Shown in pieces: positions 9,408 through 41,962 of a DNA stretch of 64,000 nucleotides. Where the stretch lies: the NCBI RefSeq assembly GCF_000826065.2, contig NZ_LN623538.1, positions 62,001 to 126,000 on the forward strand, read 5' to 3'. The translations under genes and the position numbers were made by a program. Below the pieces are notes generated by a model. It had not been told where the DNA came from. It did no database searches and was given only the letters and a program-made list of their open reading frames with translations. The DNA comes from Tessaracoccus massiliensis (lineage in GTDB: Bacteria > Actinomycetota > Actinomycetes > Propionibacteriales > Propionibacteriaceae). How positions within the stretch are numbered: the stretch's first letter is position 1; each line of letters begins with the position of its first letter.

Positions 9408-9413
9408 GGCGGG

Positions 9414-15776: not shown

Positions 15777-15782
15777 GGAGAA

Positions 15783-20292: not shown

Positions 20293-20296
20293 GCTG

Positions 20297-24916: not shown

Positions 24917-25075
24917 TCTCATTCTCCTTCAGTGGTCCGGGTGGACCGTAGCGGCGTGCGGTGCCTAGGCACCAACGTCGGCGTGCTTCGCTCGCGCGAC
25001 GCGTTGCATAGAGCCTAGCCACGGTTTGGCGCAGTACCGGGGATTTCGGGCAGGTCTAGCCTCGTTGAGTCGCAG

Positions 25076-25113: not shown

Positions 25114-25134
25114 GTCGGGGCGACAGGACTCGAA
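25114..25134. repeat. attL core of the genomic island
   Basis: 21 bp identical to 41889-41909, matching the 3' end (T-arm and acceptor) of tRNA-Pro. It marks the left border of the island. Confidence 0.85.
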
Positions 25135-25252
25135 GACGATTCAGGGCCCTACTGTGCCGCCGGCTTGACTACGTGTAATGTAGGTTTGGCTAGGTGTTTC
25201 ACCTGGTCTAGGCTGCGTCACGGGAGCTCAGTAAACGACACTGTTTGCCATC

Positions 25253-25279
25253 CGCTATTGCACGTTTATCGCACGACGT
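25253..25279. repeat. Left arm-type site with paired ATTGCACG/ATCGCACG
   Basis: Two copies of AT(T/C)GCACG with 11-bp period (25257-25264, 25268-25275). The whole 27-bp segment recurs at 41817-41843 inside the right end. Such internal direct repeats are typical integrase or excisionase arm sites. Confidence 0.55.
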
Positions 25280-25298
25280 GGCAACAGGAGGGAGGATT

Positions 25299-26425
25299 GT
25301 GGTCCGAAACAGCACGTCTCCGAGCCAGCCGCGTCGACGGCGTCGTGGCTTCGGAGCGATCCGTCGACTTCCCTCCAAACGATACCAAGCCAGCTTCCTC
25401 AGCCCCGATGGTGAGCGGATAGTCGCGCCGACGACCTTCGAGGTGAAGATGGATGCCGAGGCCTGGCTGGCCATCAACAGCGCTGCGATCGCGGAGGGGC
25501 GGTGGAGGAAGCCCGTGGCTGCTTCCCCGGCGGACATCACCTTCCAGGAGTACGCGGAGGACTGGCTCCGACGGCGTGAGTTGAAGCCGCGGACCCGTGC
25601 GGAGTACGAGCGGTTGCTGGCGCTCTTGATGGAAGGATTCGCTGCCAAGCGGATTGATGCGATCACCCCGGACGTCGTGCGTCGGTGGTACGAGTCGCTC
25701 GACCCGACACGACCCACCCGCCGCGCTCATCAATACGATCTTCTTCGCACGATCATGGGCACGGCCGGTGATGAAGAAATCATCGACGCCAGCCCTTGCC
25801 GTATCCGCGGGGCTGGGAAGGCTAAGCGTGCTCGACAGATCCGGCCCGCCACCTTGGCGGATCTCAAGGTGATGACTGGGGCGCTTCCCGAACGGTGGCG
25901 GGTGCTCCTGCAGCTCGCCTCCTGGTGCGCCTTGCGATTCGGCGAACTCACCGAGCTGCGCCGCATGGACGTCGATCTGGACAATGGGGTGCTTCGCATC
26001 TCTCGTGGCGTTACCTGGGTACACGGCGAGCCCATCATCGGCGATCCGAAGTCCCAGGCTGGTGTCCGCGACGTTTCCATCCCTCCGCATCTGGTACCCG
26101 ACCTGGAAGCCCACCTTGCGCGTTTCGTCGGGCCCCGTCGCGATGCCCTGGTCTTCACTGCCGTAGGGGGACCCGGGCACTTGAACCACGGCACCTTCTA
26201 CAAGGCGTTCCGTCACGCCCGCGCTGAGGCGGGGCGGGAGGATCTGCGCTACACGACATGCGTCACACCGGGGCCGTGATGGCCGCCCAGGCGGGCGCCA
26301 CGACCAGGGAGCTCATGGATCGGCTGGGGCATACGACGTCGGAGATGGCCATGCGGTATCAGCACGTTGCCGAAGGACGACAGGCCGAGATCGCGCGGCG
26401 CTTGTCGGCGATGGCGGGGGAGTAG
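25299..26425 (+). pseudogene. Frameshifted tyrosine site-specific integrase
   Basis: Start GTG at 25299, chosen for its AGGAGGGAGGA ribosome site. The N-terminal arm-binding and core-binding (SAM-like) domains are present (FQEYAEDWLRRRELKPRTRAEYERL near residue 86 splits them), as is the first catalytic Arg in CALRFGELTEL. After DLRY the frame breaks: one base (a C) is missing near 26252-26253, so the reading frame ends at 26279. In the next frame the expected end continues: DMRHTGAVMAAQAGAT, then LMDRLGH and the nucleophile Tyr in AMRYQHV, stopping at 26425. The break sits exactly before the HxxR box, so the product should be inactive unless this is a sequencing error. Confidence 0.85.
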
Positions 26426-26465
26426 CGACCTCGGGGGGACGGGGCCGCGCGGTCAGAGGGAACGA

Positions 26466-26510
26466 GCGCTCATGCCGATGTGCGCGACTTCGCGCTCATG
26501 CCAACGTGCG
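26466..26510 (+). repeat. Two 19-bp direct repeats
   Basis: GCGCTCATGCCGATGTGCG (26466-26484) and GCGCTCATGCCAACGTGCG (26492-26510), two mismatches, 26-bp period, just after the integrase remnant. Purpose unknown. Nothing else is visible between 26426 and 26584. Confidence 0.5.
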
Positions 26511-26584
26511 GATGTTCAGGTCGGCGGACCCGAAGCGCGGTCGTCTCCGAGGAGCCGACATGCGTAGCCTGTGGGAGTGCGCGG

Positions 26585-27685
26585 CTAGCTCGATGCCCTC
26601 GCCTGTCTAGACCGGAGCACGATGCTCTGGACGTCGGCGGTGTCTCCACTGGTGTCGAGCTCTACGACGACCTGCACCGCGACTTCACTGTTTGCCTCGA
26701 AGTAGTGGTCGTTGAGTTCCCCGTAGAGACTCATTGTCTCGCCTTCATCGATGAACCAGTCGCCCTTGAAGACGGCACCTTCGAGGTTGATGAGAGCCTC
26801 CGCTGTCGCGGTGACGGTATGCGTAGTCTCGTCTTCGTCGAACTCGAACTCTGTGACCTGATCGATGTCGCTGATGGAACAGGTCTCCATTGCCGGCAAC
26901 TCAAACTGCACGAACTCTGGGTACTCATAGTCGCCGCCGTAGACCATCTGCTGCGAGATCTCTTCCCCTGCCAGCGCGTAGAGGGCATTTGTGGCCGCGG
27001 CCACCAGGGCAACATGAGCGGCAGTTGCTTCCACCTCCGCTATGGCATTCAGGATATTCTTAGCGCTCCCGACGCGCCGTCGATCCAACTTGTGCTCGTC
27101 AAGGTCAGTGAGCAGATCATGATGGATCGTCCTCGAGTCTCCGGATAGAAACCCCTTATCCGCTGTCACGAACAGCACCTTCTCGTCGTCTCCGAGCTGC
27201 CCTAGCACAGCGAGTACCGTCTCCCAGATCAGTGTGTCGCGGAAGCCGACCGATACCAGCTTCTGCTTCGCGTCGATCTCCATGAAGGGGCGTCGGCGTG
27301 CGAGATCTCGCTTGAGGATCGCTGTGGCCGAGACGTCGGGCACCGGTGCGACGGCGACATTGTCTCGATTTAGGACGGCCTCGAACGCGGCATCCAGATC
27401 GGCTTCGATCTGCTCGAAGCTCGCTTTCAGATGAGCAGCCGTTTGGGTCACATCGACTCCGGCCTTGGCCATGTCGCCAACCCCCTTCGCGGCCTGCTCA
27501 TGAGCGTGATTGGCAGCTTCGCGACGTTGCCTTCGCAGCTCGTCGATCACGACCTGCGGGTACACGACGGTAGCGTGACCGCGCGCCGCCAGCTCCAGCA
27601 GCTTCTTGCCGGGCGCGCCGGCCAGCCAAGGGTCGCTGCGGAGCGCGTTTGTGTCGAGCACGACGGTGAGCATGCGCACCATCAT
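26585..27685 (-). CDS. PIN-domain (DUF4935-like) protein
   Basis: 366 aa; the ATG four codons in (27671-27673, MLTVVLDTNAL) is equally possible. The PIN fold metal residues are recognisable: Asp11 in VLDTN, an acidic residue in VVIDELRRQ near 48, and Asp in FVTADKGF near 184. PIN domains are magnesium-dependent RNases, and DUF4935-type PIN proteins carry a long C-terminal extension like the beta-rich acidic domain here (about 255-366). There is no antitoxin-like neighbour, so it is not a simple VapBC toxin. It is transcribed toward the integrase. The 270 bases upstream (27686-27955) show no gene. Confidence 0.75.
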   Translation of the reverse strand: MMVRMLTVVLDTNALRSDPWLAGAPGKKLLELAARGHATVVYPQVVIDELRRQRREAANHAHEQAAKGVGDMAKAGVDVTQTAAHLKASFEQIEADLDAAFEAVLNRDNVAVAPVPDVSATAILKRDLARRRPFMEIDAKQKLVSVGFRDTLIWETVLAVLGQLGDDEKVLFVTADKGFLSGDSRTIHHDLLTDLDEHKLDRRRVGSAKNILNAIAEVEATAAHVALVAAATNALYALAGEEISQQMVYGGDYEYPEFVQFELPAMETCSISDIDQVTEFEFDEDETTHTVTATAEALINLEGAVFKGDWFIDEGETMSLYGELNDHYFEANSEVAVQVVVELDTSGDTADVQSIVLRSRQARASS

Positions 27686-27955
27686 GCCTCACCGGGCGCG
27701 GGCGGTCATCCCGAGAGTCGTACGTCCGCAGACGCGGAGTTGCGGTCGTGTGAAACTGTCGAGTCCCAGACATCGCACCATCAAAAAATGAGCATGCTTC
27801 GAAGAGGAACTTACTGTTAGCCCGGCCCAGCGCTTCGAGATGGCCTGCGGAATGCCGGAAGTATCGAGCACTCATGGCCCTTGTTCCAGTTGACTGTCAG
27901 AGCTGTATGTAACGATGAAGCAAGATCTGGGAACGCCCAGAGCTAAGACAGAGTG

Positions 27956-28834: not shown

Positions 28835-28878
28835 ATGCCGCTTGTCGGCAACCCCACGGACGCACTCATCTGCCGCGG

Positions 28879-29067
28879 TGTGCGAGGGAAACTTGGCGGC
28901 TGCCGGTCACTGAGCACGAGTTGACAGTGGCTGCCACCAAATCCGCAGAGGGTGGAGTCAAGGTCTGGTTAGTCTCCGGTGAGGGCACGCGAAGCAGCGA
29001 ACGATCTATCCGGCTCAAGATCGATCTGAATGGACCAAAACGGGGCGAGTTCGAGGTAGGAATGTAA
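28879..29067 (+). pseudogene. Trypco2-like domain fragment
   Basis: The open frame has no proper start codon here and ends at 29067. It reads TEHELTVAATKSAEGGVKVW, then LVSGEGTRSSERSIRLKIDL. This resembles the C-terminal half of the trypsin-co-occurring domain 2, which accompanies effectors in bacterial conflict systems. The N-terminal half is missing or in another frame. It follows the broken wHTH gene by about 45 bases, so both may be remains of one operon. Assignment from pattern only. Confidence 0.4.
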
Positions 29068-29389
29068 AACGACAGTGCGCAACTATACGACGAGTCGTGT
29101 GACTTTCGGGCCCTCCTTGGGCAAGATGATGCCAATCAATTCGGAGAGGCCCAAGCGCATCGACTCCGCCGCCAACACTCATACCGGTTCTGCTCGCCCG
29201 CGACGCCCCTCCACTTCCGCTTCGAGCAGGCTGAAGAAGTGATCGGAGGCTGATGTGACGAACACCTCGTCAGGGTTGTGACGGTCTAGGAGGGCGCTGA
29301 ACAAGGCGCGATCTCTGCGTCGCGTTCGAGGTGGGTGGCGGGCGGACGCCACCAATGGGCCGTCGAGCGGCATTTCAGGTCAGCACTCT

Positions 29390-31124
29390 GGGTGCGACAA
29401 CGGGGTCTTTCCGCCCGTCCTTTGGGCATTTCGCGCGGCTGTCGGGGCGGCTGCAAGGGGGCCGGCCGCGACCGGTCAGCCCAGGACCCAGGTCCCGTTC
29501 TGGTACTGCAGGCCCATGGTGAGGAGGCGGCGCAGGTTGAGTGCTGCGACGCGGTGGTGGAGCCAGTTGTTGTTCTTCTCCACGCCGCGGTAGGGGACGC
29601 GACGGGCTCCGTGGGTAAGCCAGGCGATGGAGCGTTCGACCATCGGACGGTGCTGTCGGTAGGTGGCCTGGAAGCTTTCGTCGGTAGCGCGTTTGCGGTG
29701 CGCGCGTTGAAGCAGGTCGTGCTCGTGGAGCACCAGTTTGCGGCCGCGTTTGGCGGTGGTGCATCGGGGTCGCAGTGGGCAGCCCGAGCAGGCGGACTCG
29801 AAGGTGACGGTGTTCTTGGCCGACACCGGTCGGGTGACGCCGGCCGGGCAGGTCACCGTCCCGGCGTCGGTGTCACGGACGAAGTCGTCGAGGGTGAACC
29901 CGTCGGGCACCGCCGGCCGCAGCGGCCAGGGCTTGATGATCGGTTCGTGGCCGGCCTGGTCGAGGTCGTGGAGCATCTCGCCGGTGCCGTAGGCAGAGTC
30001 GGCCAGGACCTCGACCGGCTGGCCTTCGCCGATCGTGGTGTCCTCGGCGAACAGGGCCGCGCCCACGTTGGCGTCGGAGTTCGCAGGGCCGCTGGACTTG
30101 GTCGCCTTGACCGCAGTGGTCAGCCCTGTGTCGGGCTCGACGACCACGTGGGCCTTGTAGCCGTCCTGGCGCCGTTCGCGGGTCTTGTGGGCGTGCCGGG
30201 TGTCGGGGTCGACGGTCGAGATCACCCGGTCCGGCGCGGTCCGCCGCGCGATTCGCCAGCGGCCGTCGGTGCCGTCGGAGTCCTCGGCCGGCTCGACGTC
30301 TTGGCCCGCGACCAACGCCAACAGGGCGACCGCTTCGGCCGGCTTTCCGCCGTTCTTGGTGATCGTCTCGATGTCGAGGGCGGCGAGCAGCGCCAGCGCA
30401 TCGTTGACCAACGCGGTGACCAGCTCATCGCGCGCCGCGGGATCGTCCCACAAGATCGGCGGCTTCCCTGCCGAGCTGTAGTCCTGACCGGTCAGCACAG
30501 CCAGCCGGATGCACTCGGTGGCGATCAGGTCCTTGGCGCCGGGCACCTCGCGACCGACTCGGCGGATCTGGGCGATCAACTGGGTAACGGTGTCCTGGCG
30601 GGCAACCGCGTCATCGAGGATCGTCGAATCCAGCGCCCGGCGCTGCCTGCCCGCCACCGCCCCGGTTTCGGCAATCACGTCGCGGACCACCTCGAAGATC
30701 CGCTGCGGACGGTCGCTGGCCGCAAGCCGACGCCGCCAGTAGGTCAACGTCGAGGGATCGAAGCCCGCCTTGTCGATCGCGTATCCGCACGCCGCCTTCC
30801 ATCGCAGATCGAAGGTCAACGCGTCGACCGCTTCGCGGTCGGAGTGGCCGTACAGCGCCTGCAGCACGATCACCGAGGCGATCACCTCACCCGGGATCGA
30901 GGGCCGCCCACGGCCAGAGGGAAACAGGTCCGCAAACAAGGTGCTCGGGAACAGCCGGTCCCGATGCTCGGCCAGCAGCGCGAACACACTGCCCGACTCG
31001 AGCAGATGCCCGGCCACCGATTCCACGTCCAGCAGTTCGCGCTGCCGATCAGACTCACCCTGCATACGCACAGGATTTCAGCCCCACCCGCCGACCGTGG
31101 GAGGCGCGCCTTTGTTCAGCGCCC
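29390..31124 (-). mobile_element. IS1182-type insertion sequence
   Basis: Extent set by imperfect terminal inverted repeats: GGGTGCGACAACGGGG at 29390-29405 against the complement of 31109-31124 (GGGCGCTGAACAAAGG). I could not see a clean target-site duplication, so the ends are tentative. The interval 29068-29389 to its left contains only a weak 64-codon minus-strand frame (29179-29373) that I cannot support as a gene. Confidence 0.55.
29476..31071 (-). CDS. IS1182 family transposase
   Basis: 531 aa, complete. The N-terminal domain has RGRPSIPGEVIASVIVLQAL (about residues 54-73) and DREAVDALTFDLRWKAACGY near 77-96, characteristic of IS1182. The DDE core includes LDSTILDDAV (first Asp), VLADSAYGTGEM (second Asp) and a C-terminal Glu in the PMVERSIAWL segment. 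A CSGCPLRPRCT cysteine motif precedes the last catalytic part. The frame is intact, so the element could still be active. Confidence 0.93.
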   Translation of the reverse strand: MRMQGESDRQRELLDVESVAGHLLESGSVFALLAEHRDRLFPSTLFADLFPSGRGRPSIPGEVIASVIVLQALYGHSDREAVDALTFDLRWKAACGYAIDKAGFDPSTLTYWRRRLAASDRPQRIFEVVRDVIAETGAVAGRQRRALDSTILDDAVARQDTVTQLIAQIRRVGREVPGAKDLIATECIRLAVLTGQDYSSAGKPPILWDDPAARDELVTALVNDALALLAALDIETITKNGGKPAEAVALLALVAGQDVEPAEDSDGTDGRWRIARRTAPDRVISTVDPDTRHAHKTRERRQDGYKAHVVVEPDTGLTTAVKATKSSGPANSDANVGAALFAEDTTIGEGQPVEVLADSAYGTGEMLHDLDQAGHEPIIKPWPLRPAVPDGFTLDDFVRDTDAGTVTCPAGVTRPVSAKNTVTFESACSGCPLRPRCTTAKRGRKLVLHEHDLLQRAHRKRATDESFQATYRQHRPMVERSIAWLTHGARRVPYRGVEKNNNWLHHRVAALNLRRLLTMGLQYQNGTWVLG

Positions 31125-31973
31125 TCCTAGGTAGCGCTGTAGCACTTCAGGCTCGGTCAAGTCAGCTCCAGGCCCTTGCTGAGAAAGCCATGTCTCCATA
31201 TCGGCAACGAGGAGGTCGACGGACTCCGTGTCCGACAAAGGTTTGATGGACCGCATCTGCGCCACCCCTGTCGTGCCGGAGAGCCGGAACCGCTGGCGCA
31301 CGTAGTGCACAGCGAACTCGAGACGACGAAACCACCTTGGGCTCTGAGTTGCCTCTGCCATCAATATCGCACGGACAGCGCTGACGGGAATGCCCCTGGA
31401 CTGGGCAGCACTTGCCGCGTACGACCACACACTAGGGCCGATGTCCCTACGTGCTCGAGCCGTGGCGGCGTCACCATGGCCCACCTCTAGCGCACGCGTC
31501 AGGCCAAAGTAGGCGGCTGCGGCTGCGGCAGCGGTCCACACAGCATTTAGGAGTTCGTATGGTTGCGGGATCACTCGCTGTGTCCACGGGCTCAAAATCC
31601 CGCCTGCTATGCCACCCGTCAGGCTGAGGAGGACACCCGTGGCGCCGGCCAGCAAGTACTTCAGCCGATGCGTCGTCGCGGCAGCTGCCCTCAGTAGGTG
31701 CACCAATCCGAAGGAGGTGAACACTGCGAGGCAAATCGTCACAGCCGCGACCGGGCTTGCATGAATTCGGTTTGCCGTGACTGCAACTACAGATGAGACG
31801 AGGCCGACAGGCGCCATCCTGAACGCCAGATACCAACCGAGGCTGAACCGTCCGAGCTGTCCCGCCGCGGTAGTTGTGTCGACATAGGCCGCTGGCCAAT
31901 TGGATCGCATCGCCCCATACAGGCCAACGAGTACGAATGCGCCAGCTATGCCCAGCCCGATGCCGTCTATCAC
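31116..31973 (-). CDS. Membrane protein with lysozyme-like C-terminal domain
   Basis: 285 aa, GTG start. Residues 1-165 hold about four to five membrane helices (IAGAFVLVGLYGAM, MAPVGLVSSVVAVTA, AAVTICLAVFTSFGLVHLL, LLAGATGVLLSLTGGIAGGI, NAVWTAAAAAAAYFGL). After a charged linker, residues 196-255 read IPVSAVRAILMAEATQSPRW, then SGTTGVAQM, reminiscent of the Glu helix and GVMQ turn of lysozyme/SLT folds. I know no named family. The last residues (Gly-Gly-Arg-stop) fall inside the right end of the IS element, so the native C-terminus may have been cut. It could be a membrane-acting effector of a defence system; that is inference. Confidence 0.6.
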   Translation of the reverse strand: MIDGIGLGIAGAFVLVGLYGAMRSNWPAAYVDTTTAAGQLGRFSLGWYLAFRMAPVGLVSSVVAVTANRIHASPVAAVTICLAVFTSFGLVHLLRAAAATTHRLKYLLAGATGVLLSLTGGIAGGILSPWTQRVIPQPYELLNAVWTAAAAAAAYFGLTRALEVGHGDAATARARRDIGPSVWSYAASAAQSRGIPVSAVRAILMAEATQSPRWFRRLEFAVHYVRQRFRLSGTTGVAQMRSIKPLSDTESVDLLVADMETWLSQQGPGADLTEPEVLQRYLGGR

Positions 31974-32158
31974 CGGTCAGCCCGTGCGCACATGTGGGAT
32001 TGCCAACTCGTCACATACTCAGACGGCGACGTCGAGTGGCACCTGCCATTAGCAATTGTGCACACTCTCAAGCCTCCAAGTAAGGAGTCGAAACGCTACC
32101 TCCCCGCGTACTCTACGGCACCAACCCAGGGTGGCCGCCGAACGTGGCCTCGTTACCA

Positions 32159-32660
32159 CGATGATCAGAGGGTAGCGCCGTAGCCTGGCTAGTTCTTCGG
32201 TGAGGCGTCCCCTCTGATGGGCTTCGGTGAGGCGGGCGATCCAGTCGGTGGCGGTGGCGAACAACACGCGGTGGCTTTGGTGGGCCGCGGCGACCCCGAG
32301 GGCGGTGGCGAGGTGGGTTTTACCTGTGCCGGGCGGGCCGAGCAGCACGATGTTGCGGTGTTCAGCCAGCCAGGCCCCTGACGCGAGAGCCTGGATCGGG
32401 GCGCGGACGGCGGGTTGGTGGTCGAAGTCGAACTCATCAAGGGTTTTGACCGCTGGCAGGCCTGCTGCGCGGATCCTCAGTTGCGCGCCGGAGGCGTTAC
32501 GGGCTGCGACTTCGCGTTCCAGGACTGCGGCGAGGTAGTCCTCGTGGGTCCAACCGGTGTCACGGGCATGATCAGCCAGCCGGGCAGCTGCTTCGCTGAT
32601 CCGGGGCGCTTTCAATGATGCGGCCAGGAAACGGATCTGTTTGAGAGCATCGGTTGCCAT
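32159..32660 (-). pseudogene. istB: Truncated IS21 helper ATPase IstB
   Basis: The N-terminal part is intact: TGWTHEDYLAAVLEREVAAR and Walker A LGPPGTGKTHLA near residue 110. Similarity stops after LRRYPLIIV, exactly where the Walker B aspartates (usually VDEVGY) should follow. The frame then runs into unrelated sequence to 32049. It cannot function. The ATG abuts the istA stop codon, the normal IS21 arrangement. Confidence 0.8.
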
Positions 32661-33135
32661 CTAGAGTGCCTCACTGTCGAGTCCGAAGGCCTTGTCGTAG
32701 TCGGCCAGATCCCTGAGCAGATCAGCATCGACCAACCGGTGTCGGGGTTGTTGGAATCGGTGACGCAGCACCGCTGCGGCTTTGACATGGTCGGGGTCGG
32801 TGATCGTGAGGTGTTTGCCCCAGCAGCGACGATGCTCCGCGACCAGGACTCCGGCGTTGCGGACTTTGACGGTATCGAGATCGGCGGTCACGTCAACGCG
32901 GGCGCCGATCGCTGAGGGATGGACTGAGTAGTCACAGGTGTCGACCCTGACGTAGTAGTCACGGCCCAAACGGATCTGGTTGCGCCAGCCAAGGTGCAGC
33001 ATCTGTGGCGGCAACGGTCGCATCCTGGCCAGATCGGCCTCGAGCCGGTCGATCGGGCGGGCCCGCAGTGTTCGGACCTGCCGGGCGTTCGCGGTGGCCA
33101 GCCACTGCGTGAACTGGGTGTGTGGACCTTCTCCC
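32661..33135 (-). pseudogene. istA: 5'-truncated IS21 transposase IstA
   Basis: Only the C-terminal about 155 codons remain: FTQWLATANARQVRTLRARP, MRPLPPQMLHLGWR, DYYVRVDTCDYSVHPSAIG, and the end EHRRCWGKHLTITDPDHVKA. These match the C-terminal domain of IstA; the DDE catalytic core is missing upstream. The in-frame ATG at 33021-33023 is internal, not a real start. Confidence 0.8.
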
Positions 33136-33285
33136 TACGCACCGGAGCAGCCGAGATCTCTCCTATGGTCGGATTCGTACATCCGGACTGGCCTTTGAGC
33201 ACGGTGCGATGTGGCGGTTTGGTTCGTGCGGCTGGGTGATCGGCAAGCTTCGACTGTCATCGCAGCGAACCTTTCGCTTCTTCTC

Positions 33286-33291
33286 TAGGAT
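33286..33291 (+). promoter_or_regulatory. -10 box (TAGGAT) of the restriction-modification operon
   Basis: TAGGAT ends six bases before the GTG start of hsdR at 33298; leaderless geometry. It lies just beyond the IS21 remnant, so the operon keeps its own promoter. Confidence 0.5.
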
Positions 33292-33297
33292 CGAGTC

Positions 33298-36066
33298 GTG
33301 ACCGATGCCGCCCGCCTTGCTGCTGAGCAGCGGGCGCGTGTGCTCATCGACGAGCAACTCCAGGCCGCCGGGTGGGTTGTTCAAGATGGCAAGGCGATGA
33401 ATCTGTTCGCTGGTCAGGGCATAGCGGTGCGCGAGGTCGTGATGGCGCCGGGCCACGGGCGCGTCGACTACCTGCTCTACGTGGACAAGAGGGTCGTCGG
33501 CGTCATCGAGGCCAAGCCCATCGGCACGACCTTGTCGGGCGTTGAGTGGCAGTCGACGATGTACGCCACCGGGCTCCCTGAGTCCCACCGCAGGCGGGCA
33601 CGGTTGGTCGACGACCGGCTGCCGTTCGTGTTCGAGGCCTCCGGCAGCGAGACCCACTTCACCAACGGGTTCGACCCGGACCCCCGAGCACGGAAGGTGT
33701 TCGCGTTCCCCAAGCCCTCGACGCTCGCCCGGATCCTCCGCGATGCGGACGCCGATCCGGAGCGCCCGACGTGGCGTGCGAAGGCCCGCGCTCTTCCTCC
33801 GCTGGATGAAGCGGGGTTGAGACCGGCGCAGATCGTCGCGATCAATGGCGTCGAGCAGTCCCTGGCCGAGCAGCGCTTCGACCGATCGCTCATCCAGATG
33901 GCCACCGGCGCCGGCAAGACCTACACCGCGGTCACGCTCGCCTACCGCCTCATCAAGTTCGGCGGCTTCTCACGGGTCCTGTTCCTGGTGGACCGCAACA
34001 ACCTCGCCGACCAAACCCTGGCCGAGTTCCAGAACTACGCCACCCCCGACGACGGACGCCGGTTCTCCGAGATCTACAACGTCGACAAGCTCACGGGTGC
34101 CGGGATGCTGGCCAGCTCGAACGTTGTGATCTCCACGATTCAGCGGGTCCACTCGGTGCTGCGCGGTAACGACGTGGCTGACGCGGATGATCCTCAGCTG
34201 GATGGGTACGTCCCGGAGCAGCCGGTCACCGTCGCCTACAACCCTGAGTTGCCGCCGGAAACGTTCGACCTCGTGATCGTGGACGAGGCGCATCGCTCCA
34301 TCTACGGCGTGTGGCGCGGAGTATTGGAGTACTTCGACGCCCACGTCGTCGGTCTCACCGCAACACCGGGCAAGCAGACGTTCGCGTTCTTCCGCCAGAA
34401 CCTCGTCTCCTCGTACACCTACCAGGAGTCGGTCTCCGACGGCGTAAACGTCGACTTCGACATCTACCGCATCCGCACCGAGATCACGGAGCAGGGCGGG
34501 AGGATCGACGCGGGCACCTTTGTGCCGAAGCTCGACAAGCGCACCCGGGTGCAGCGCATCGAGGAGATCGACGAGGCGGTCGATTACACCGGCGGCCAGC
34601 TCGACCGTGCGGTGAGCAACCCAAACCAGATCCGACTGGTGCTAGAGACTTTCCGCGACCGGCTGTTCACCGAGATCTTTCCAGGTCGCTCGGCCGTCCC
34701 GAAGACGCTCATCTTCGCGAAGGACGACAACCATGCCGAGCAGATCGTCACACTGGTGAGGCAGGTGTTTGGCAAGGGCAACGACTTCGCCGCCAAGATC
34801 ACCTACACCGCCACTGATCCCAAGGGGCAGTTGCAAGCCTTTCGCACGTCCCCGAAGCTGCGCATCGCCGTCACCGTGGACATGATCGCCACCGGCACCG
34901 ACGTGAAGCCCCTGGAATGCGTTTTCTTTCTCCGGGACGTGAAGACCGCGCAGTACTACGAGCAGATGAAGGGTCGCGGCGCCAGGACCATCGCGGCCGC
35001 AGACTTCCAAGCAGTCACCCCTGATCCGAAGGCCAAGCAGAAGACCAGGTTCGTGATCGTCGACGCCGTCGGCGTCACCGAGCACGACTTCGTCGAGCCG
35101 CCGCTCAACCGAACCCGATCCATCTCGCTGGAGCAGCTGCTCAAGAAGGCGGCGAACCTCACGATCACGGAGGACGAGACCGCGACGCTCGCTTCGCGGC
35201 TGTCGGCGCTCGAGCTGCAACTCACGCCGGACGAGCGCTCCGAACTCGACAAGGTGGCCGGGCAGCCGCTCAAGGCGATAGTGCGTGGGCTCGTCGACGC
35301 TGTGGATCCCGATGTGCAGGCGACGGCTCTCGAGGCAGCGGGGGAGGGAGTCGATGTCGCGACGGTGGTGGCGCAACTGACTGAGGCGGCGATCGAGCCG
35401 TTGGCCGCCAATCCCGAGTTGCGCACCCGCATCATGGAACTGCGCCGCACCCACGATCAAATCATCGACGACGTGAACGCCGACCGGCTCCTCGCCGCCC
35501 ACGGGGTCGTGGACCCGGAGGAAGCCCGATCGCTGGTCCGCGACTGGAAGGAGTACTTGACGACCCACCGCAACGAGATCACGGCAATCCAGCTGATGGA
35601 TGAGGCCAAAACGCGCCGCATTCCGTTCGACGCCATCAAGGAGCTTGCCGACCGCATCGCCCGGCCGCCCAGGAACTGGACGCCTGACATGGTGTGGACG
35701 GCCTACGAACTGGTAGACGTGGGCAGCGTGCAGCATCGCGATCGGTCGCGCCTCACTGACGTTGTGTCGTTGGTCCGCTATACGCTCGAACTCGACGACG
35801 AACTCATCCCGTTCGCCGATACCGTCCAGCGACGCTACGCTGGCTGGCTCCTGTCGCAGGAGCAATCGGGCGCGACGTTCAACGAGAAGCAAAGGTGGTG
35901 GCTCGACCGCATGGTCGACGTGATCTCGAACTCCGCCGGCATCACTGCCGATGACCTTGACGAGGCGCCCTTCGACGAGCGCGGTGGCATTTATGGCGCA
36001 CTCCGCGATCTCGGCGACGGGGCCGGGGACCTGCTTGACGAACTGAACCGGGAGCTCACGGCGTGA
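33298..36066 (+). CDS. hsdR: Type I restriction endonuclease subunit R
   Basis: 922 aa. It is the DNA translocase and nuclease of a type I system: it cuts unmethylated DNA away from the recognition site. The PD-(D/E)xK nuclease domain shows Asp57 (RVDYLLYV) and Glu71-x-Lys73 (VIEAKP). The helicase domain has Walker A MATGAGKT near 201-208 and DEAH in VIVDEAHRS near 328. Motif VI lies in YYEQMKGRGAR. The C-terminal helical domain (about 610-922) binds the MTase core. GTG start six bases after a TAGGAT box. The GTGA overlap with hsdS couples the two. Confidence 0.95.
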   Translation: MTDAARLAAEQRARVLIDEQLQAAGWVVQDGKAMNLFAGQGIAVREVVMAPGHGRVDYLLYVDKRVVGVIEAKPIGTTLSGVEWQSTMYATGLPESHRRRARLVDDRLPFVFEASGSETHFTNGFDPDPRARKVFAFPKPSTLARILRDADADPERPTWRAKARALPPLDEAGLRPAQIVAINGVEQSLAEQRFDRSLIQMATGAGKTYTAVTLAYRLIKFGGFSRVLFLVDRNNLADQTLAEFQNYATPDDGRRFSEIYNVDKLTGAGMLASSNVVISTIQRVHSVLRGNDVADADDPQLDGYVPEQPVTVAYNPELPPETFDLVIVDEAHRSIYGVWRGVLEYFDAHVVGLTATPGKQTFAFFRQNLVSSYTYQESVSDGVNVDFDIYRIRTEITEQGGRIDAGTFVPKLDKRTRVQRIEEIDEAVDYTGGQLDRAVSNPNQIRLVLETFRDRLFTEIFPGRSAVPKTLIFAKDDNHAEQIVTLVRQVFGKGNDFAAKITYTATDPKGQLQAFRTSPKLRIAVTVDMIATGTDVKPLECVFFLRDVKTAQYYEQMKGRGARTIAAADFQAVTPDPKAKQKTRFVIVDAVGVTEHDFVEPPLNRTRSISLEQLLKKAANLTITEDETATLASRLSALELQLTPDERSELDKVAGQPLKAIVRGLVDAVDPDVQATALEAAGEGVDVATVVAQLTEAAIEPLAANPELRTRIMELRRTHDQIIDDVNADRLLAAHGVVDPEEARSLVRDWKEYLTTHRNEITAIQLMDEAKTRRIPFDAIKELADRIARPPRNWTPDMVWTAYELVDVGSVQHRDRSRLTDVVSLVRYTLELDDELIPFADTVQRRYAGWLLSQEQSGATFNEKQRWWLDRMVDVISNSAGITADDLDEAPFDERGGIYGALRDLGDGAGDLLDELNRELTA

Positions 36067-37349
36067 GTTCGCTCCCGTCTGGCTGGTCAGTACGCACCCT
36101 CGGGGAGATTGCTGACACTGCCTTGGGCAAGATGCTTGACCGAGGAAGGTCTAAGGGTCTCCCTCAGGTGCGCTATCTGCGAAACATTAACGTGCAGTGG
36201 GGGCGCATCGATACTGGCCACCTAGCAGAAATGGAGCTGGCCGACGAGGAGCGAGAGCGGTTTAGGGTCCGAGAAGGGGATCTCTTGGTTTGTGAGGGAG
36301 GAGAGGTTGGTCGAGCCGCCATCTGGAAGCAGGATGACGAGTACATCGCCTATCAGAAAGCGCTGCATAGAGTGCGCCCCAAGGACGGCATCGCTCCCGA
36401 GTACCTGAGATATGCCTTGGAGAATGCAGCACGAACAGGTGCCTTGAAGCCGTTCACGACAGGTTCCACGATCGCCCACTTGCCTCAGCAGAACCTACGT
36501 CGACTCCCCATCGCATTGGCGCCCCAGCGAGAGCAACCTATGGTAATTGAAGCCTTGGAGGGCCACCTTTCGCGCATTCAATATGCGCATGAAGCGCTCG
36601 AACGAGGCATGCACCGACTCGACGCTGTGACTAAGGCCATTTTGGTTGGCCTGATTCCTGATCGCGATGGCTACCCGAAGGATTGGATCACTGCCACGGT
36701 TGGTGACGCTGGGCGGGTTGAGCTTGGCCGACAGCGGCACCCCGACTGTCACTCCGGTCCCAACATGCGCCCCTACCTGCGAGTAGCGAACGTCTTCGAG
36801 GATCGAATCGATTCGTCGGACCTTATGGAAATGCACTGGCCGGGTGATAGCTTCGAACGATTCGAGTTGCGGCCCGGCGATATCTTGCTCAATGAAGGGC
36901 AAAGCCCGCAGTTCTTGGGACGACCCGCCCTCTACGCAGGTGAGCCGGCCAATGTTGCCTTCACCAACAGCCTAATCAGATTCAGGGCGCGCGCAGATGT
37001 CTTGCCAGAGTTCGCCTTGCTCGTATTCCGACGTCACATGCACGCCGGGCGATTCATGCGCGAATCGCGCATCACGACCAACATTGCGCACCTGTCTGCG
37101 TCCCGCTTGAAGAGGGTAGAGTTCCCGATTCCCCCAGTCTCGGCTCAGGAAAAGATTGTGGCTGCTGCGACGGATCAGCTGTCTTGTGTCGCGCGTTTGC
37201 GCACGTCCGTGACTGGGGCCAAGCGGCGAGAAGGCTTGCTCCGGCGTTCTCTACTCTCCGCTGCCTTCTCAGGGCGTTTGACTCGCCGAGCCTCGGACAT
37301 CGATCACTTGGAGGAATTCGAGACCGAACTGGAGGGATTGGCCGGATGA
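36063..37349 (+). CDS. hsdS: Type I restriction-modification specificity subunit S
   Basis: 428 aa, GTG start overlapping the hsdR stop. Two target-recognition domains are visible, each followed by a long conserved helix: TRD1 about residues 5-165 (ending IALAPQREQPMVIEALEGHL) and TRD2 about 205-360 (ending FPIPPVSAQEKIVAAATDQL). So it recognises a bipartite DNA site. Codon use is less GC-rich than in hsdR and hsdM, as is common for recombining TRDs. The stop overlaps the Mrr-like gene by ATGA. Confidence 0.93.
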   Translation: MSSLPSGWSVRTLGEIADTALGKMLDRGRSKGLPQVRYLRNINVQWGRIDTGHLAEMELADEERERFRVREGDLLVCEGGEVGRAAIWKQDDEYIAYQKALHRVRPKDGIAPEYLRYALENAARTGALKPFTTGSTIAHLPQQNLRRLPIALAPQREQPMVIEALEGHLSRIQYAHEALERGMHRLDAVTKAILVGLIPDRDGYPKDWITATVGDAGRVELGRQRHPDCHSGPNMRPYLRVANVFEDRIDSSDLMEMHWPGDSFERFELRPGDILLNEGQSPQFLGRPALYAGEPANVAFTNSLIRFRARADVLPEFALLVFRRHMHAGRFMRESRITTNIAHLSASRLKRVEFPIPPVSAQEKIVAAATDQLSCVARLRTSVTGAKRREGLLRRSLLSAAFSGRLTRRASDIDHLEEFETELEGLAG

Positions 37350-38374
37350 CCGCGATCTGGGGAGTACACAATGACACGCTGACTGATGAGCTCGTCGACG
37401 ACGGGTTCATCAGCGTTGGCTGGGACGAGATGAGCGACCTTCGCGCCGTCCCGCACGGGCGGGAGGGGCTAAAGGAGACGCTTGCCCGAGTGATGCCGAA
37501 CGCCAAGCCGAGGGCCATCGCAGGATGGGCAGGCATTCTGGTTCGACTGCGGGACGAGATGCAACCGGGCGACATCGTCGTCGCGCCATACAAGCCAGAC
37601 AGCACGATCAACATCGGGATCATCAGCGGCGAGTACGAGTTCGCGGCCGACGCACCCACCCACCGCCACCGGCGGCCGGTCGAGTGGCGCAAGATCGGGC
37701 TCTCGCGGACGATCTTCACGCAGCCAGCGCTCTACGAGCTGGGTTCATTCCTGACGATCTTCCGTATCCGCAAGCATGCTGATGAGTTCCTCGCCGCTCT
37801 CCGCTCCGGCGATGAGTCGGTCGATGAGATCACTCGCGTGGTCGAGGCCGTCGCGAAGGACGATCCGGACGAGGAGGCAGCCGACGAGCCGCGGGCGTCT
37901 CGGATCGAGCGCCACACGCGCGACTTCGTGCTGGAGGCGCTGCACAAGGAGCTCTCCCACTCCGCGTTCGAGGAGTTCACGGCAGATCTGCTCCGCGCGC
38001 TCGGCTATCAGGCCAGGGTCACGCAGTACAGCCAGGACGGGGGAGTGGACGTCATCGCACATCGCGATCCCCTCGGCGTCGAACCGCCCCAGATCAAGGT
38101 GCAGTGCAAGCATCTCACCAGCACCGTCGGGGCGCCCGAGGTGCAGCAACTGATCGGCACACAGGGCTCTGGGGAGTATCTCCTCTTCGTGACCCTCGGC
38201 AGCTATAGCCGTGATGCCGTGTCGATTGAACGCCAGCGCTCGGGTCTCCGGCTGGTGTCCGGCGAGGACCTGGTGACACTGTTCCTGGAGAACTATGCGA
38301 AGCTGCCGGAGCGCTGGAGGCTGCGCATCCCGTTGACGCCTGTGCTCGTCGTCGGCGATGCGGCTGGCGTCTGA
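37346..38374 (+). CDS. Mrr-like restriction endonuclease with EVE/PUA-like N-terminus
   Basis: 342 aa from the ATG at 37346. The C-terminal Mrr catalytic domain (about 195-330) has the PD-(D/E)xK pattern Asp235 (GGVDVIAHR) and Gln253-x-Lys255 (KVQCKH), preceded by FEEFTADLLRALGY. The N-terminal 150 residues (IWGVHNDTLTDELVDDGFIS, GDIVVAPYKPDSTINIGIIS) resemble EVE/PUA-type modules that read modified bases. This suggests cutting of modified foreign DNA (type IV-like). It is embedded between hsdS and hsdM with an ATGA overlap, so it is co-expressed with the type I enzyme. The domain names rest on pattern recognition. Confidence 0.85.
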   Translation: MTAIWGVHNDTLTDELVDDGFISVGWDEMSDLRAVPHGREGLKETLARVMPNAKPRAIAGWAGILVRLRDEMQPGDIVVAPYKPDSTINIGIISGEYEFAADAPTHRHRRPVEWRKIGLSRTIFTQPALYELGSFLTIFRIRKHADEFLAALRSGDESVDEITRVVEAVAKDDPDEEAADEPRASRIERHTRDFVLEALHKELSHSAFEEFTADLLRALGYQARVTQYSQDGGVDVIAHRDPLGVEPPQIKVQCKHLTSTVGAPEVQQLIGTQGSGEYLLFVTLGSYSRDAVSIERQRSGLRLVSGEDLVTLFLENYAKLPERWRLRIPLTPVLVVGDAAGV

Positions 38375-38402
38375 GGAGTCGTGATGGTGAGAGAGGTGTC
38401 CG

Positions 38403-39890
38403 GTGGCTGACGCGCGTCGGTTGGTCGACAAGATCTGGTCCTACGCGCACGTTCTGCGTGACGATGGTGTCGGGGTACTTGAGTACACCGAGCAGCTGAC
38501 GTATCTGCTGTTCCTGAAGATGGCGCACGAGCGCGCCACCCGGACACTGCGGCCCGAACAGATCGTGCCGGAGGAGTTTTCCTGGCAGCGTTTGCTCGAT
38601 GCGGAAGGCGTCAAGCTCGAGACGGCCTACACCGAGATCCTTCAAGGGCTGGGAAAGCAGCCCGGCACCCTCGGCACGATCTTCCGCAAGGCCCAGAACC
38701 GGATCCAGGACCCGGCCAAGCTCAAGCGCCTCATCCACGACCTCATCGACAAGGAGCAATGGTCATCGGCCGGCACGGACATCAACGGAGACGCCTACGA
38801 GTCACTGCTCGCGAAGGGCGCCTCCGATAAGGGGTCCGGGGCTGGGCAGTACTTCACGCCGCGCTCTGTGATCGCGGCGATGGTGGACTGCGTTCAGCCG
38901 ACGGTGGCGGACTCCGTCGTCGATCCGGCATGTGGCACCGGTGGATTCCTGCTCGCGGCGCATGAGTACGCCTCGCGCGGGGCTGAGACGATGACGCCGC
39001 CGGAGCGCAAGCACCTCAAGGAGACGTTCGCCCGTGGTGTCGAGCTGGTCGACGGCACGGCACGCCTGGCCGCGATGAACCTCCTCCTGCACGGGATGGG
39101 GGAGCCCCATGGGGAGTCGCTGATCGAGGTGCGGGACTCTTTGGCTCACGACCCGGGGGACCGCTGGTCGGTCGTGCTGGCCAACCCTCCGTTCGGAACG
39201 AAGTCGTCGCTGACGATGGTTGGTGCCGACGGCCGGGAGGTGTCCGAGGACCGCGCCGTGGAGCGTCAGGACTTCGTCGTCACCACGTCGAACAAGCAGC
39301 TCAACTTCCTGCAGCACATCATGACAATCCTGGAGATCAATGGCCGGGCGGCCGTCGTCCTGCCCGACAACGTCCTTTTTGAGGGTGGTGCGGGGGAGAC
39401 TCTGCGGCGTCGGCTGCTCAACGACTTCGACTTCCACACTCTCCTTCGCCTCCCCACCGGATTGTTCTATGCCCAGGGCGTGAAGGCCAACGTCTTGTTC
39501 TTCGACCGCAAGCCCGCATCAGAGACCCCCTGGACCTCTCGGCTCTGGGTCTACGACCTTCGAACCAACCAGCACTTCACCCTGAAGCAGAACCCGCTCA
39601 CGCGCGCCCACCTCGACGACTTCGTCGCCGGCTTCATGCCCGGTGGGGCGCGCGACGAGCGTTCCGAGAGTGAGCGCTTCAAGTCGTTCGGCTACGACGA
39701 ACTCATCGCGCGCGACAAGGTGAACCTGGACATCACCTGGCTCCGAGACGAGACGCTCGAGGACTTGGACAACCTGCCGGCCCCCGAAATCATCGCGCGT
39801 GAGATCGTCGAGGATCTGACCGCCGCGCTGGAGGAGTTCACGGCGGTAGCGGACGCCCTTGAGGTGGCGAGTGGCCTTCGCAACCCCTAG
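38403..39890 (+). CDS. hsdM: Type I restriction-modification methyltransferase subunit M
   Basis: 495 aa, GTG start. It is an adenine-N6 methyltransferase that protects host sites. The SAM-binding motif I DPACGTGGF is at residues 174-182 and the catalytic motif IV NPPF at 261-264. The N-terminal helical HsdM domain is in residues 1-140 (YAHVLRDDGVGVLEYTEQLT). Normal length. It comes last in the order R-S-Mrr-M, 28 bases after the Mrr gene. Having the protective methylase last is unusual. Confidence 0.95.
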   Translation: MADARRLVDKIWSYAHVLRDDGVGVLEYTEQLTYLLFLKMAHERATRTLRPEQIVPEEFSWQRLLDAEGVKLETAYTEILQGLGKQPGTLGTIFRKAQNRIQDPAKLKRLIHDLIDKEQWSSAGTDINGDAYESLLAKGASDKGSGAGQYFTPRSVIAAMVDCVQPTVADSVVDPACGTGGFLLAAHEYASRGAETMTPPERKHLKETFARGVELVDGTARLAAMNLLLHGMGEPHGESLIEVRDSLAHDPGDRWSVVLANPPFGTKSSLTMVGADGREVSEDRAVERQDFVVTTSNKQLNFLQHIMTILEINGRAAVVLPDNVLFEGGAGETLRRRLLNDFDFHTLLRLPTGLFYAQGVKANVLFFDRKPASETPWTSRLWVYDLRTNQHFTLKQNPLTRAHLDDFVAGFMPGGARDERSESERFKSFGYDELIARDKVNLDITWLRDETLEDLDNLPAPEIIAREIVEDLTAALEEFTAVADALEVASGLRNP

Positions 39891-39925
39891 CGAGGAGCGC
39901 GTCTGAAAGTCCAACCTGCCAGAAT

Positions 39926-39978
39926 CGGTCAAAATACCGGCCCGGTCAGTAGTATTGACCGCATGGATCTTTTGACCG
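39926..39978. promoter_or_regulatory. Nested inverted-repeat operator over the abiE promoter
   Basis: The inner dyad CGGTCA (39943-39948)/TGACCG (39956-39961) brackets the -10 box TAGTAT (39950-39955). The outer dyad CGGTCAAAA (39926-39934)/TTTTGACCG (39970-39978) reaches into codon 3. All four half-sites share GGTCA. A dimer or tetramer bound here would block the leaderless promoter of the next gene. Confidence 0.7.
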
Positions 39979-40976
39979 CTCAGTCTGGCGACTTGCACGG
40001 ACTCATCCGTCACGCGCTGGGGCAGTACGGGGTGAAGACAACTCCGGTGGACGACCCCGACGCGGGCGCCGATCTGTTTGCACTCATCCCGGGGTGCGGT
40101 TCGGAGCCGCTGAAAGTGCCCGTCGAGCTCAAGTTCCGCTCCCAACCATTGGGCGTCGCAGAGGCTGACCGCTGGGCACATGGTCGAGTGGACCCGGTGA
40201 TCCTGGCTCAGCCATCGGTGCCGCGCGACCGCGGCGCGCAGTACCGGGCCTTGGGTATCAACTACATCGACAGCGGCGGCAACGCGTACCTTCACTTCCC
40301 GGGCTTCCAGGTCCACGTCGAGGGCCGCAAACCCCGACTCGCGGTGGGGCCTGCGCGGCGAAAAGTCACGGCCTCGTGCACCCCGGCAGAGCTCAGGGTG
40401 ATCTTCGCGCTCCTGATCCGTCCGGACACGGTGGAGATGAGCTACGAGAGGCTGGCCGTTCTGGCCGGCACGTCCAAGGGCTCCGTCACGAACGCGATCA
40501 CCGATCTCCGCCACCGCGGCCACGTCGCTGAACTGGCCGGCAAACGGCGACTCATCGACCCGGACCGGCTGGCCCGTGACTGGATCGACGGCTACGTGCG
40601 CGACCTTGGGCCGAGACTGCAGGAACTTCAGGTTGCAGGTCCAGCAGCCCATTGGTGGATCCAGGATTGGCACGAACCCGAAGGAACTCTCTCCGGCGGC
40701 GTCGCGCTCGCAGCGATGGGCGGTGACATCCGCCCAGACCGCACTGTCGTCTACGGTCAGCCGCCCTGGTACGCCATCCGACAACGAGCGCGACTCTCCC
40801 GAGACGGCGACGCGCCGGTGATCCTGCGGGAACGGTTCTGGTCGTCTGATCTCCTCGACGACAGGCTCGTGCCTCCGCTGCTCGCCTACGCTGACGCCCT
40901 CACCGGCGGCGACCCGCGGGAGGTCGAAGTCGCTCAGGACCTGGACCGCCGCCATCAATGGGCGTTCCGGAGATGA
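39963..40976 (+). CDS. AbiEi-type antitoxin/transcriptional autoregulator
   Basis: 337 aa. In type IV toxin-antitoxin pairs AbiEi represses its own operon and counters the AbiEii nucleotidyltransferase. The N-terminal domain (1-120) is restriction-endonuclease-like, with Glu55-x-Lys57 (VPVELKFRS) and the typical AQPSVPRDRGAQYRALGINY segment. A winged helix follows (about 145-200, MSYERLAVLAGTSKGSVTNA), then a C-terminal domain of about 130 residues. The start is the ATG seven bases after TAGTAT. The stop overlaps the nucleotidyltransferase gene (ATGA), as in abiEi-abiEii pairs. Family assigned by architecture and context. Confidence 0.75.
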   Translation: MDLLTAQSGDLHGLIRHALGQYGVKTTPVDDPDAGADLFALIPGCGSEPLKVPVELKFRSQPLGVAEADRWAHGRVDPVILAQPSVPRDRGAQYRALGINYIDSGGNAYLHFPGFQVHVEGRKPRLAVGPARRKVTASCTPAELRVIFALLIRPDTVEMSYERLAVLAGTSKGSVTNAITDLRHRGHVAELAGKRRLIDPDRLARDWIDGYVRDLGPRLQELQVAGPAAHWWIQDWHEPEGTLSGGVALAAMGGDIRPDRTVVYGQPPWYAIRQRARLSRDGDAPVILRERFWSSDLLDDRLVPPLLAYADALTGGDPREVEVAQDLDRRHQWAFRR

Positions 40977-41743
40977 GCGGGCCGATTCCGGGGCTCCCGG
41001 AGGGGCTCGTGCTCACCCTGCGGCAGACCCTGCCGGACTTCACCTTGGTCGGGGCATTGGCCAGGGACTACCAGCTTCACACGGTCGCCGGACTACCCAC
41101 CGGGAGCGCGACCAGGGATGTCGATGTCTCAATCCTCGTGCCCTCGCTGGATGCCTATCATCACCAACTGCGGCCGTTCTTCGGGCCGAACGCGACGGGC
41201 ATCCGGTTCCAGGTGGACGGGTTCGAGGTCGACGTGATTCCCTACGGTCCGCGGGTTGCGCCCGGCGGGGTCGTCGAGCCCGCCGAAGGCCTCACGCTCG
41301 ACATCACGGGCATGGCGGAGGCCGCCGCCACAGCCGAAACGGTGACCTTGGGCAGCACGGCGGTCAAGGTGCCGACGCTGAGCTCGATGATCGGCCTCAA
41401 GCTGGTGGCTTGGCACTATCGACACGTCGGTGAACCGAACAAGGATGCGCGCGATCTCGGCCCGCTGTTGCAGGCCACCCGCTACGGTCCCCACGGCGAA
41501 GCGCTCTGGGATGACGTAGAGGCGCTCCAACGTTGGGAGTACCAGGATTACCTCGTGGGCCCCTACCGGGCGGGCCGACAACTGCACGCTGACTGGGAGC
41601 CTGCATCCCTGGAACGTTTGGCCGGCATCCTCGACGGTGACGGCCCCACCCTGGCCTCGCACATCAGCCGCGCTTCCAGGGAAACGGTGGGGGAGCTCGA
41701 CGTGCAGCTGGCCGCTCTCCGCGCGGGGATCACCGGCTCCTGA
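40973..41743 (+). CDS. AbiEii-type nucleotidyltransferase (putative toxin)
   Basis: 256 aa from the ATG at 40973. It has the DNA polymerase beta-like nucleotidyltransferase motif of the AbiEii/MNT group: Gly27-Ala-x-Ala-Arg31-Asp32 (LVGALARDYQL) and Arg48-Asp49-Val-Asp51 (ATRDVDVSI), with a third Asp probably in FEVDVIPYG. AbiEii-type enzymes modify tRNA or other RNA and stop growth during phage infection. The overlap with the upstream autoregulator supports a toxin-antitoxin pair. It is the last gene of the island. The interval 41744-41886 holds the right arm sites. Confidence 0.78.
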   Translation: MSGPIPGLPEGLVLTLRQTLPDFTLVGALARDYQLHTVAGLPTGSATRDVDVSILVPSLDAYHHQLRPFFGPNATGIRFQVDGFEVDVIPYGPRVAPGGVVEPAEGLTLDITGMAEAAATAETVTLGSTAVKVPTLSSMIGLKLVAWHYRHVGEPNKDARDLGPLLQATRYGPHGEALWDDVEALQRWEYQDYLVGPYRAGRQLHADWEPASLERLAGILDGDGPTLASHISRASRETVGELDVQLAALRAGITGS

Positions 41744-41816
41744 TGGACGCAAACCGGCTCCTCGCTCGGCGCGAAGGGGCGACCCGAAGGACGGCGTCTC
41801 GCGGGTATCGCGTGAA

Positions 41817-41843
41817 TCGCTATTGCACGCATATTGCACGAGA
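41817..41843. repeat. Right arm-type site with paired ATTGCACG
   Basis: ATTGCACG at 41822-41829 and 41833-41840, same 11-bp period and orientation as at 25253-25279. Confidence 0.55.
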
Positions 41844-41886
41844 CGACGTTCTCATTCCGCAACTGGCGTCTGACTGGGGCGAACGA

Positions 41887-41962
41887 TGGTCGGGGCGACA
41901 GGACTCGAACCTGCGGTCTCCTGCTCCCAAAGCAGGCGCGCTAGCCACTACGCTACGCCCCG
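41887..41962 (-). tRNA. tRNA-Pro (TGG anticodon)
   Basis: Minus strand. The acceptor stem CGGGGCG/CGCCCCG, anticodon stem CCTGC/GCAGG with loop TTTGGGA (anticodon TGG) and T-arm with TTCGAGT are all present, and the 3' ACCA is encoded. The last 21 bases before ACCA coincide with attR, so the 3' part of the present gene was supplied by the island. Confidence 0.93.
41889..41909. repeat. attR core of the genomic island
   Basis: Identical to 25114-25134 and lying inside the 3' end of the functional tRNA-Pro gene. Confidence 0.85.

Follow-up and report, generated by a model that had tools for sequence, protein, structure and literature searches.

A tRNA-Pro island of Tessaracoccus massiliensis with a predicted EVE-Mrr nuclease gene inside a putative type I restriction operon

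Type IV systems embedded in type I restriction-modification (RM) loci have a precedent in TgvAB of a Vibrio island, for which complementary targeting of modified and unmodified phages has been proposed and whose authors also cite GmrSD genes in type I loci (PMC11411939). One branch of the McrBC systems often adjoins type I systems (PMC11090510), and PIN-GNAT-EVE and ASCH proteins have been described beside type I systems, as have type IV enzymes of the EVE-PD(D/E)XK and EVE-HNH types (PMC7641849). The subject of this work is a 64,000-nucleotide stretch of the Tessaracoccus massiliensis genome (contig C13, positions 62001-126000; hereafter, the window), in which a 16.8-kb island at a tRNA-Pro(TGG) gene carries a putative hsdR-hsdS-mrr-hsdM operon and an abiEi-abiEii gene pair. 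This island is quite probably what is left of an integrative mobilizable element that has become stranded, with a defense operon of two filters and an AbiE pair as its load. The 3.2-Mb genome (G000; 99.99% complete, 17 contigs) was compared with 38 others of the genus, 39 in all; genomes are designated by G numbers and loci by L numbers.

As in the case of TgvAB, a system predicted here to be modification-dependent lies within the type I operon of a genomic island. However, TgvAB consists of two proteins of the GmrSD type (DUF262/DUF1524), whereas in the window hsdS and hsdM flank the gene of one EVE-Mrr protein, for which Pfam gave only Mrr_cat and NA-iREase1 at E values of ≤0.01, and neither DUF262 nor DUF1524. 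Because TgvAB has already established the presence of a type IV system inside a type I operon, the window offers only a variant of that arrangement: a single EVE-Mrr enzyme, encoded by a gene that overlaps hsdS, in a chassis whose specificity gene has been swapped. The combination of a predicted modified-base reader with a nuclease is shared with the EVE-PD(D/E)XK and EVE-HNH enzymes. The protein matches over its whole length the PADLOC family PDC-S02, which we take to be COG4127. That family is a single-gene candidate in PADLOC, whereas the window copy sits in a type I operon, with its R and M partners conserved alongside. In one published source, PDC-S02 figures as a candidate only. Among the titles and openings of abstracts listed from the open-access literature, no named version of this Mrr in or beside type I operons was found, which is not a claim of its absence from print.

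The mrr gene between hsdS and hsdM

The hsdR and hsdS genes overlap by 4 bp, as do hsdS and mrr, which starts at position 37346, and a gap of 28 bp separates mrr from hsdM. Judging from these overlaps and spacing, the four genes appear to form one operon, in which the HsdR, HsdM, and HsdS domains that define a type I system occur together. The residues Asp235, Gln253, and Lys255 of Mrr, presumably the catalytic motif of the Mrr_cat nucleases, are invariant in 12 Mrr sequences. In a structure search, the N-terminal domain of the predicted Mrr model matched VcaM4I, PH1033, MJECL36, and YTH, and FokI entries also appeared among the matches of that search; a comparison of the Mrr profile with the sequences of solved structures gave weak matches, the best of them to the MspJI entries 4f0p and 4f0q at an E value of 0.015. 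The protein is predicted to join an EVE/YTH-like modified-base reader to an MspJI-like nuclease. In such an operon, HsdM and HsdS would mark the host's own sites, and HsdR, together with both, would cut DNA without the mark. EVE-Mrr may bind a modified base by its N-terminal domain and cut DNA by its MspJI-like one, so that phages escaping the type I enzyme through DNA modification could still be cut.

Twenty full-length mrr loci, including that of the window, were inspected (the G016 locus was chosen because hsdS lies beside mrr there). As the loci were picked by similarity or coverage, the rates of association with type I genes are not population estimates. Type I operons were found in 8 of the 20: the gene order is R-S-mrr-M in the window, L042, L044, and, with one extra gene, L166; M-S-R-mrr in L049 to L051; and M-S-mrr-R in L173 (27% identity). 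Among 115 plasmid records that match Mrr, six were inspected, and type I genes were present in four and absent from two; no Mrr relatives were found in viral contigs. Close relatives of Mrr (96 to 100% identity) are encoded in 3 of the 39 genus genomes, and the other matches in the genus are at most 38% identical. Starting instead from the window family of hsdM, mrr was found beside it in none of 21 other genomes of the phylum (396 searched) within 1.5 kb, or less on short contigs. This rules out mrr as a general neighbor of that hsdM family, yet G762, which was found via mrr, has the order R-S-mrr-X-M.

In L171 and L172, the N-terminal domain of Mrr occurs in a protein with Mrr_N and McrB-type ATPase domains, adjoining an McrC gene.

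A shared R-mrr-M module with three hsdS genes

The window stretch 33215-39974 recurs in G019 (contig C90) and G007 (contig C11) with 94.5 to 94.6% DNA identity and the same two ends, at other genomic places. Each of the three modules has a different hsdS (22 to 30% pairwise protein identity over 364 to 406 aligned residues). DNA homology ends at 36066, the hsdR stop, and resumes at 37338 in G019 and at 37308 in G007, i.e., for the last 12 or 42 bases of hsdS, respectively, and the Mrr proteins that accompany these different specificity subunits are 96 to 98% identical. Synonymous divergence of the module genes between the window and G019 or G007 is 0.15 to 0.18, compared with 0.62 for the patatin gene (G019) and 0.70 to 0.83 for two genes compared with G032; in the chromosomal flank of G019, blocks other than tRNA genes are 73.6 to 80.8% identical to the window. 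Because the module is far less diverged than this flank and the other genes, it can be inferred to have moved between species. An IS21 end as the module border was ruled out, as in the relatives the common TGTGTGG stretch is located upstream of the relaxase gene. The close relatives of the window defense genes come from records of an uncultured Arachnia sp. and of a Propionibacteriaceae metagenome-assembled genome.

The exchange of hsdS bears on another possible role of Mrr. McrBC has reportedly been proposed to act as a guard that kills cells with a foreign methylation pattern, and E. coli Mrr provides a parallel. A guard function for the window Mrr, directed at cells that acquire such a pattern and not at phages, would agree with the 4-bp overlap of mrr with hsdS and with an N-terminal fold class that includes m6A readers (YTH). 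It is nevertheless improbable: the nearly identical Mrr sits with three different hsdS genes and must therefore tolerate three type I patterns, and 12 of the 20 inspected relatives lie outside type I operons.

The genes downstream of hsdM also vary. The preliminary description had treated the right half of the island, from hsdR to abiEii, as a single intact and tightly coupled cassette. The gene order and all six open frames agree with this, and so does the coupling of the first four genes; however, abiEi begins 72 bp past the end of hsdM and is preceded by its own inverted repeat, probably the AbiEi operator, so that the pair makes a second, separable unit. The module ends in G019 and on contig C11 of G007 retain the promoter and start of abiE in decayed form (0 of 500 shuffles in each comparison), and abiE is down to scraps in three copies in these two relatives. 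A fixed RM-Mrr-AbiE trio can be rejected, as the modules of G019 and G007 have no whole abiE genes next to them, a 14-kb stretch with the AbiE pair of G011 contains no RM gene of the window, and, among the M-S-R-mrr loci L049 to L051, only L049 is followed by an HTH/nucleotidyltransferase pair. Past the module, G019 has an ASCH gene (25.5 bits; cutoff, 21.2) and then a gene for a 508-amino-acid (aa) protein, and the same two genes follow on contig C11 of G007 after about 0.8 kb more. This protein had no Pfam match, and its best match among solved structures was GNAT at an E value of 0.15; it is read as PIN-GNAT-EVE. Thus, the G019 and G007 modules have next to hsdM the kinds of genes described beside other type I systems, whereas the window has AbiEi and AbiEii. 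Such a toxin-antitoxin pair with its own operator could serve abortive infection or stabilize the region.

The R-mrr-M chassis probably passes from one species to another as a unit, with exchange of hsdS and of the downstream toxin-antitoxin gene. A tentative generalization, for which the odds are rather against, is that EVE-Mrr serves as a general partner to type I systems and was inserted independently at several positions (R-S-mrr-M, M-S-R-mrr, and M-S-mrr-R), and that the mobile operon is a chassis with exchangeable slots, one for specificity, one for the embedded type IV gene, and one for the downstream toxin-antitoxin genes (AbiE here, ASCH and PIN-GNAT-EVE in the relatives), R, M, and Mrr staying together. 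If so, an Mrr that tolerates any type I pattern yet cuts other modifications would permit free hsdS swaps. The same backbone with three specificity genes raises the questions of whether the type IV enzyme must fit host methylation and of how specificity genes swap without killing the cell.

In G762, a gene for a 318-aa nuclease-like protein lies between mrr and hsdM (L166, reverse strand, 8771-9727), and a similar gene directly precedes mrr in G717 (L168, reverse strand, 6439-7395); it is possibly another slot gene.

The tRNA-Pro(TGG) site and the remains of a mobile element

The island is bounded by two exact copies of a 21-bp direct repeat, GTCGGGGCGACAGGACTCGAA, at 25114-25134 and 41889-41909, which equals the 3' part of tRNA-Pro; the right copy lies inside the tRNA-Pro(TGG) gene, in agreement with the borders first proposed. 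A chance origin of this core is ruled out by its occurrence in only two exact copies in the whole genome, with no further copy in the window at up to 4 mismatches, and by a reversed-pattern control, which gave 0 copies in the listed genomes. Just within the island ends lie two further direct repeats (24 bp, 88% identity), which are found at both ends of the G007 island as well and are probably integrase arm sites.

At least one exact core is present in 26 of the 39 genus genomes, with one copy in 20 and two in six (G000, G007, G033, G027, G034, and G026). Four of the six have a match to the window integrase that begins 131 to 198 bp inside the far core: G000 (cores 16.8 kb apart), G007 (19.8 kb; 95% integrase protein identity), G033 (34.0 kb; 65%), and G027 (95.1 kb; 56%). 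The element would insert at the 3' end of tRNA-Pro(TGG) by means of this tyrosine integrase, whose family occupies the site in these four genomes. At E values of ≤1e-20, no integrase of the window family was found in G034 or G026 (cores 319 kb apart). The two exact cores of G034 lie 4.1 kb apart at tRNA-Pro (L080:8146-12245).

A single exact core alone does not prove an empty site: in G025, an integrase of the window family adjoins a second core that differs by one mismatch. G015, the nearest relative by its flank genes, shares the order of the left flank (phosphorylase, hydrolase, two ABC genes, kinase, regulator, and NmrA; 75 to 94% protein identity), followed by an aconitase-like gene and a tRNA-Pro with a single core. 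In G019, the tRNA-Pro with its one core lies ∼450 bp from a block that matches window positions 15780-20295. The island is therefore absent from both genomes, which, together with the sister islands at the same site, upholds its borders. In the window, NmrA is followed by a hup gene (24635-24922) and then by the left core, the corresponding place in G015 being taken by the aconitase gene; the best aconitase match of the window genome sits elsewhere and is 65% identical to that of G015.

Integrative mobilizable elements that target tRNA genes and encode a MobF relaxase form a known class, exemplified by the G007 island, which has a whole integrase gene and a whole MobF (TrwC) relaxase gene. The window island shares with it the integrase next to the core, the probable arm sites, and the tRNA, but it lacks the relaxase gene that defines the class (the G007 relaxase has no match in the window island), and its integrase is frame-broken. 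Some 145 to 190 bp before hsdR, ∼45 bp (33109-33153) resemble the relaxase leader of the G007 island, with a score attained by 0 of 500 shuffles; in the comparison with G019, only 23 bp align, and 3 of 500 shuffles attain the score. This match suggests that a relaxase was formerly present and has since been lost from the window copy.

With Pfam scores of 24.3 bits for Phage_int_SAM_3 (cutoff, 22.6) and 24.5 bits for Phage_integrase (cutoff, 27.1), the window integrase is divided by one length change into two otherwise open parts, whereas the G007 copy is a single open frame. It could be argued that the element is still mobile, either because the break is an artifact of sequencing or assembly or because an intact relative acts in trans; the single length change and the presence of both cores and both probable arm sites fit this view. 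It appears unlikely, as the break lies inside one contig of a nearly complete genome, the island has no relaxase match, and G000 encodes no second integrase of the family at E values of ≤1e-20.

With its integrase frame broken, no relaxase, and IS1182 and IS21 material in its left half, the window copy is probably no longer self-moving, and the remaining content would be cargo. The left half had been described as full of broken genes, which is true of the integrase, IS21 istB and istA, and the open reading frame (ORF) at 31116-31973; the PIN gene (26585-27685) and IS1182 look intact. No clear target duplication was found around IS1182. The PIN gene has a relative in 1 of the 38 other genus genomes (E value of ≤0.001; 31% identity). 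In a PADLOC scan, no match was obtained for the AbiE genes, the PIN gene, the ORF at 28157, the transposase, or the integrase.

Several observations weigh against the interpretation of the island as a stranded mobilizable element with a two-filter operon. The Mrr model, built from 12 sequences, has a predicted template modeling score (pTM) of 0.49 and an uncertain packing of its domains, and the mrr loci outside type I operons include that of L043, at 81% identity (the L046 contig is too short to judge). AbiEii scores just under the Pfam cutoff, the integrase break is possibly an assembly error, and the former presence of a relaxase rests on a short leader match. The left flank, with hup, differs from that of G015, with its aconitase gene, and the empty junction of hup with tRNA-Pro predicted at the outset was not seen in the relatives examined, which include no empty site of the same species.

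Selection on defense and mobility genes

The G007 island at the same site is the mirror image of the window island, with mobility genes kept and defense genes lost. Its RM module has shrunk to ∼60 bp of inverted hsdM sequence, and its abiE is represented by pieces matching the first 20 codons of abiEi and the last 52 codons of abiEii; a whole module with its own hsdS is found elsewhere in G007. The two islands thus offer a natural comparison, with one integrase family at one tRNA site and opposite losses. The G007 island also carries cation-efflux-like and metal P-type ATPase-like genes (L060:862-3859), as judged from their first residues only.

The dN/dS values, over three pairs each, are 0.066 to 0.078 for hsdR, 0.064 to 0.084 for hsdM, and 0.051 to 0.117 for mrr, and all three genes are under purifying selection. 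The integrase was under similar selection (dN/dS of 0.117 in one pair, over the 310 codons before the break) until a recent single length change, and its last 57 residues past the break, compared by eye, are alike in the window and G007. It had been proposed that selection keeps only the defense part of the island, so that the right half was preserved and the genes for mobility decayed. The low dN/dS of hsdR, mrr, and hsdM among the modules of three species and the intact frames of the defense genes speak for this proposal, which is nonetheless doubtful as a whole. The integrase decayed too recently for a contrast between defense and mobility genes to be drawn from the window copy alone, the G007 island did the reverse, abiE is in scraps in its three copies in the relatives, and the PIN gene and IS1182 of the window are intact too.

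Table 1. Features of the island, by position in the window (aa, amino acids)
Feature	Position	Strand	Basis
Left core repeat (attL-type)	25114..25134	.	Exact copy of 41889-41909
Tyrosine integrase, N-terminal and central part; frame lost before HxxR box; C-terminal part in another frame to about 26425	25245..26279	+	Pfam matches, reading frames
Probable integrase arm-type site, left	25253..25276	.	24-bp direct repeat with 41818-41841; in G007 island
PIN-domain protein, 366 aa, open frame	26585..27685	-	PIN_12, 80.2 bits (cutoff, 32)
ORF, 225 aa	28157..28834	+	No family found
IS1182-family element, transposase 29476-31071, 19-bp perfect terminal inverted repeats	29286..31130	-	NCBIfam transpos_IS1182, 344.5 bits (cutoff, 270), full-length match
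ORF apparently truncated by IS1182 insertion, stop inside IS1182 end	31116..31973	-	Relative in G003 at 46%
IS21 remnant: istB 32049-32660, first two thirds; istA 32661-33023, C-terminal part only	32049..33023	-	IstB_IS21 positions 3-159 of 238; Mu-transpos_C_2
hsdR, type I restriction subunit, 922 aa	33298..36066	+	ResIII, SWI2_SNF2, EcoEI_R_C
hsdS, specificity subunit, 428 aa, exchanged gene	36063..37349	+	Methylase_S, 2 stretches
mrr, predicted EVE/YTH-like + Mrr/MspJI-like nuclease (PADLOC PDC-S02), 342 aa	37346..38374	+	Mrr_cat, 91.9 bits; PDC-S02, 343 bits; predicted fold
hsdM, N6-adenine methyltransferase subunit, 495 aa	38403..39890	+	N6_Mtase, 209 bits; PADLOC MTase_I, 608 bits
Inverted repeat CGGTCAA...TTGACCG before abiEi, probable AbiEi operator	39926..39961	.	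Read directly; stretch kept in G007 island
abiEi-type antitoxin/regulator, 337 aa	39963..40976	+	AbiEi_2, 62.1 bits (cutoff, 21)
abiEii-type nucleotidyltransferase toxin, 261 aa	40958..41743	+	AbiEii, 20.5 bits (cutoff, 22.5); gene pair also present in G011
Probable integrase arm-type site, right	41818..41841	.	24-bp direct repeat with 25253-25276; in G007 island
tRNA-Pro(TGG), integration target, contains right core 41889-41909	41887..41962	-	ARAGORN

In the window and in many relatives, no more than 400 bp separates the tRNA-Pro and tRNA-Gly genes, which are 10 to 18 kb apart in G003, G011, G025, G026, and G027 (L063, L081, L082, L083, and L084); this wide spacing probably marks a second insertion site at tRNA-Gly. 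At window positions 8057-8138, ARAGORN calls a tRNA-like gene with an unusual two-base anticodon.

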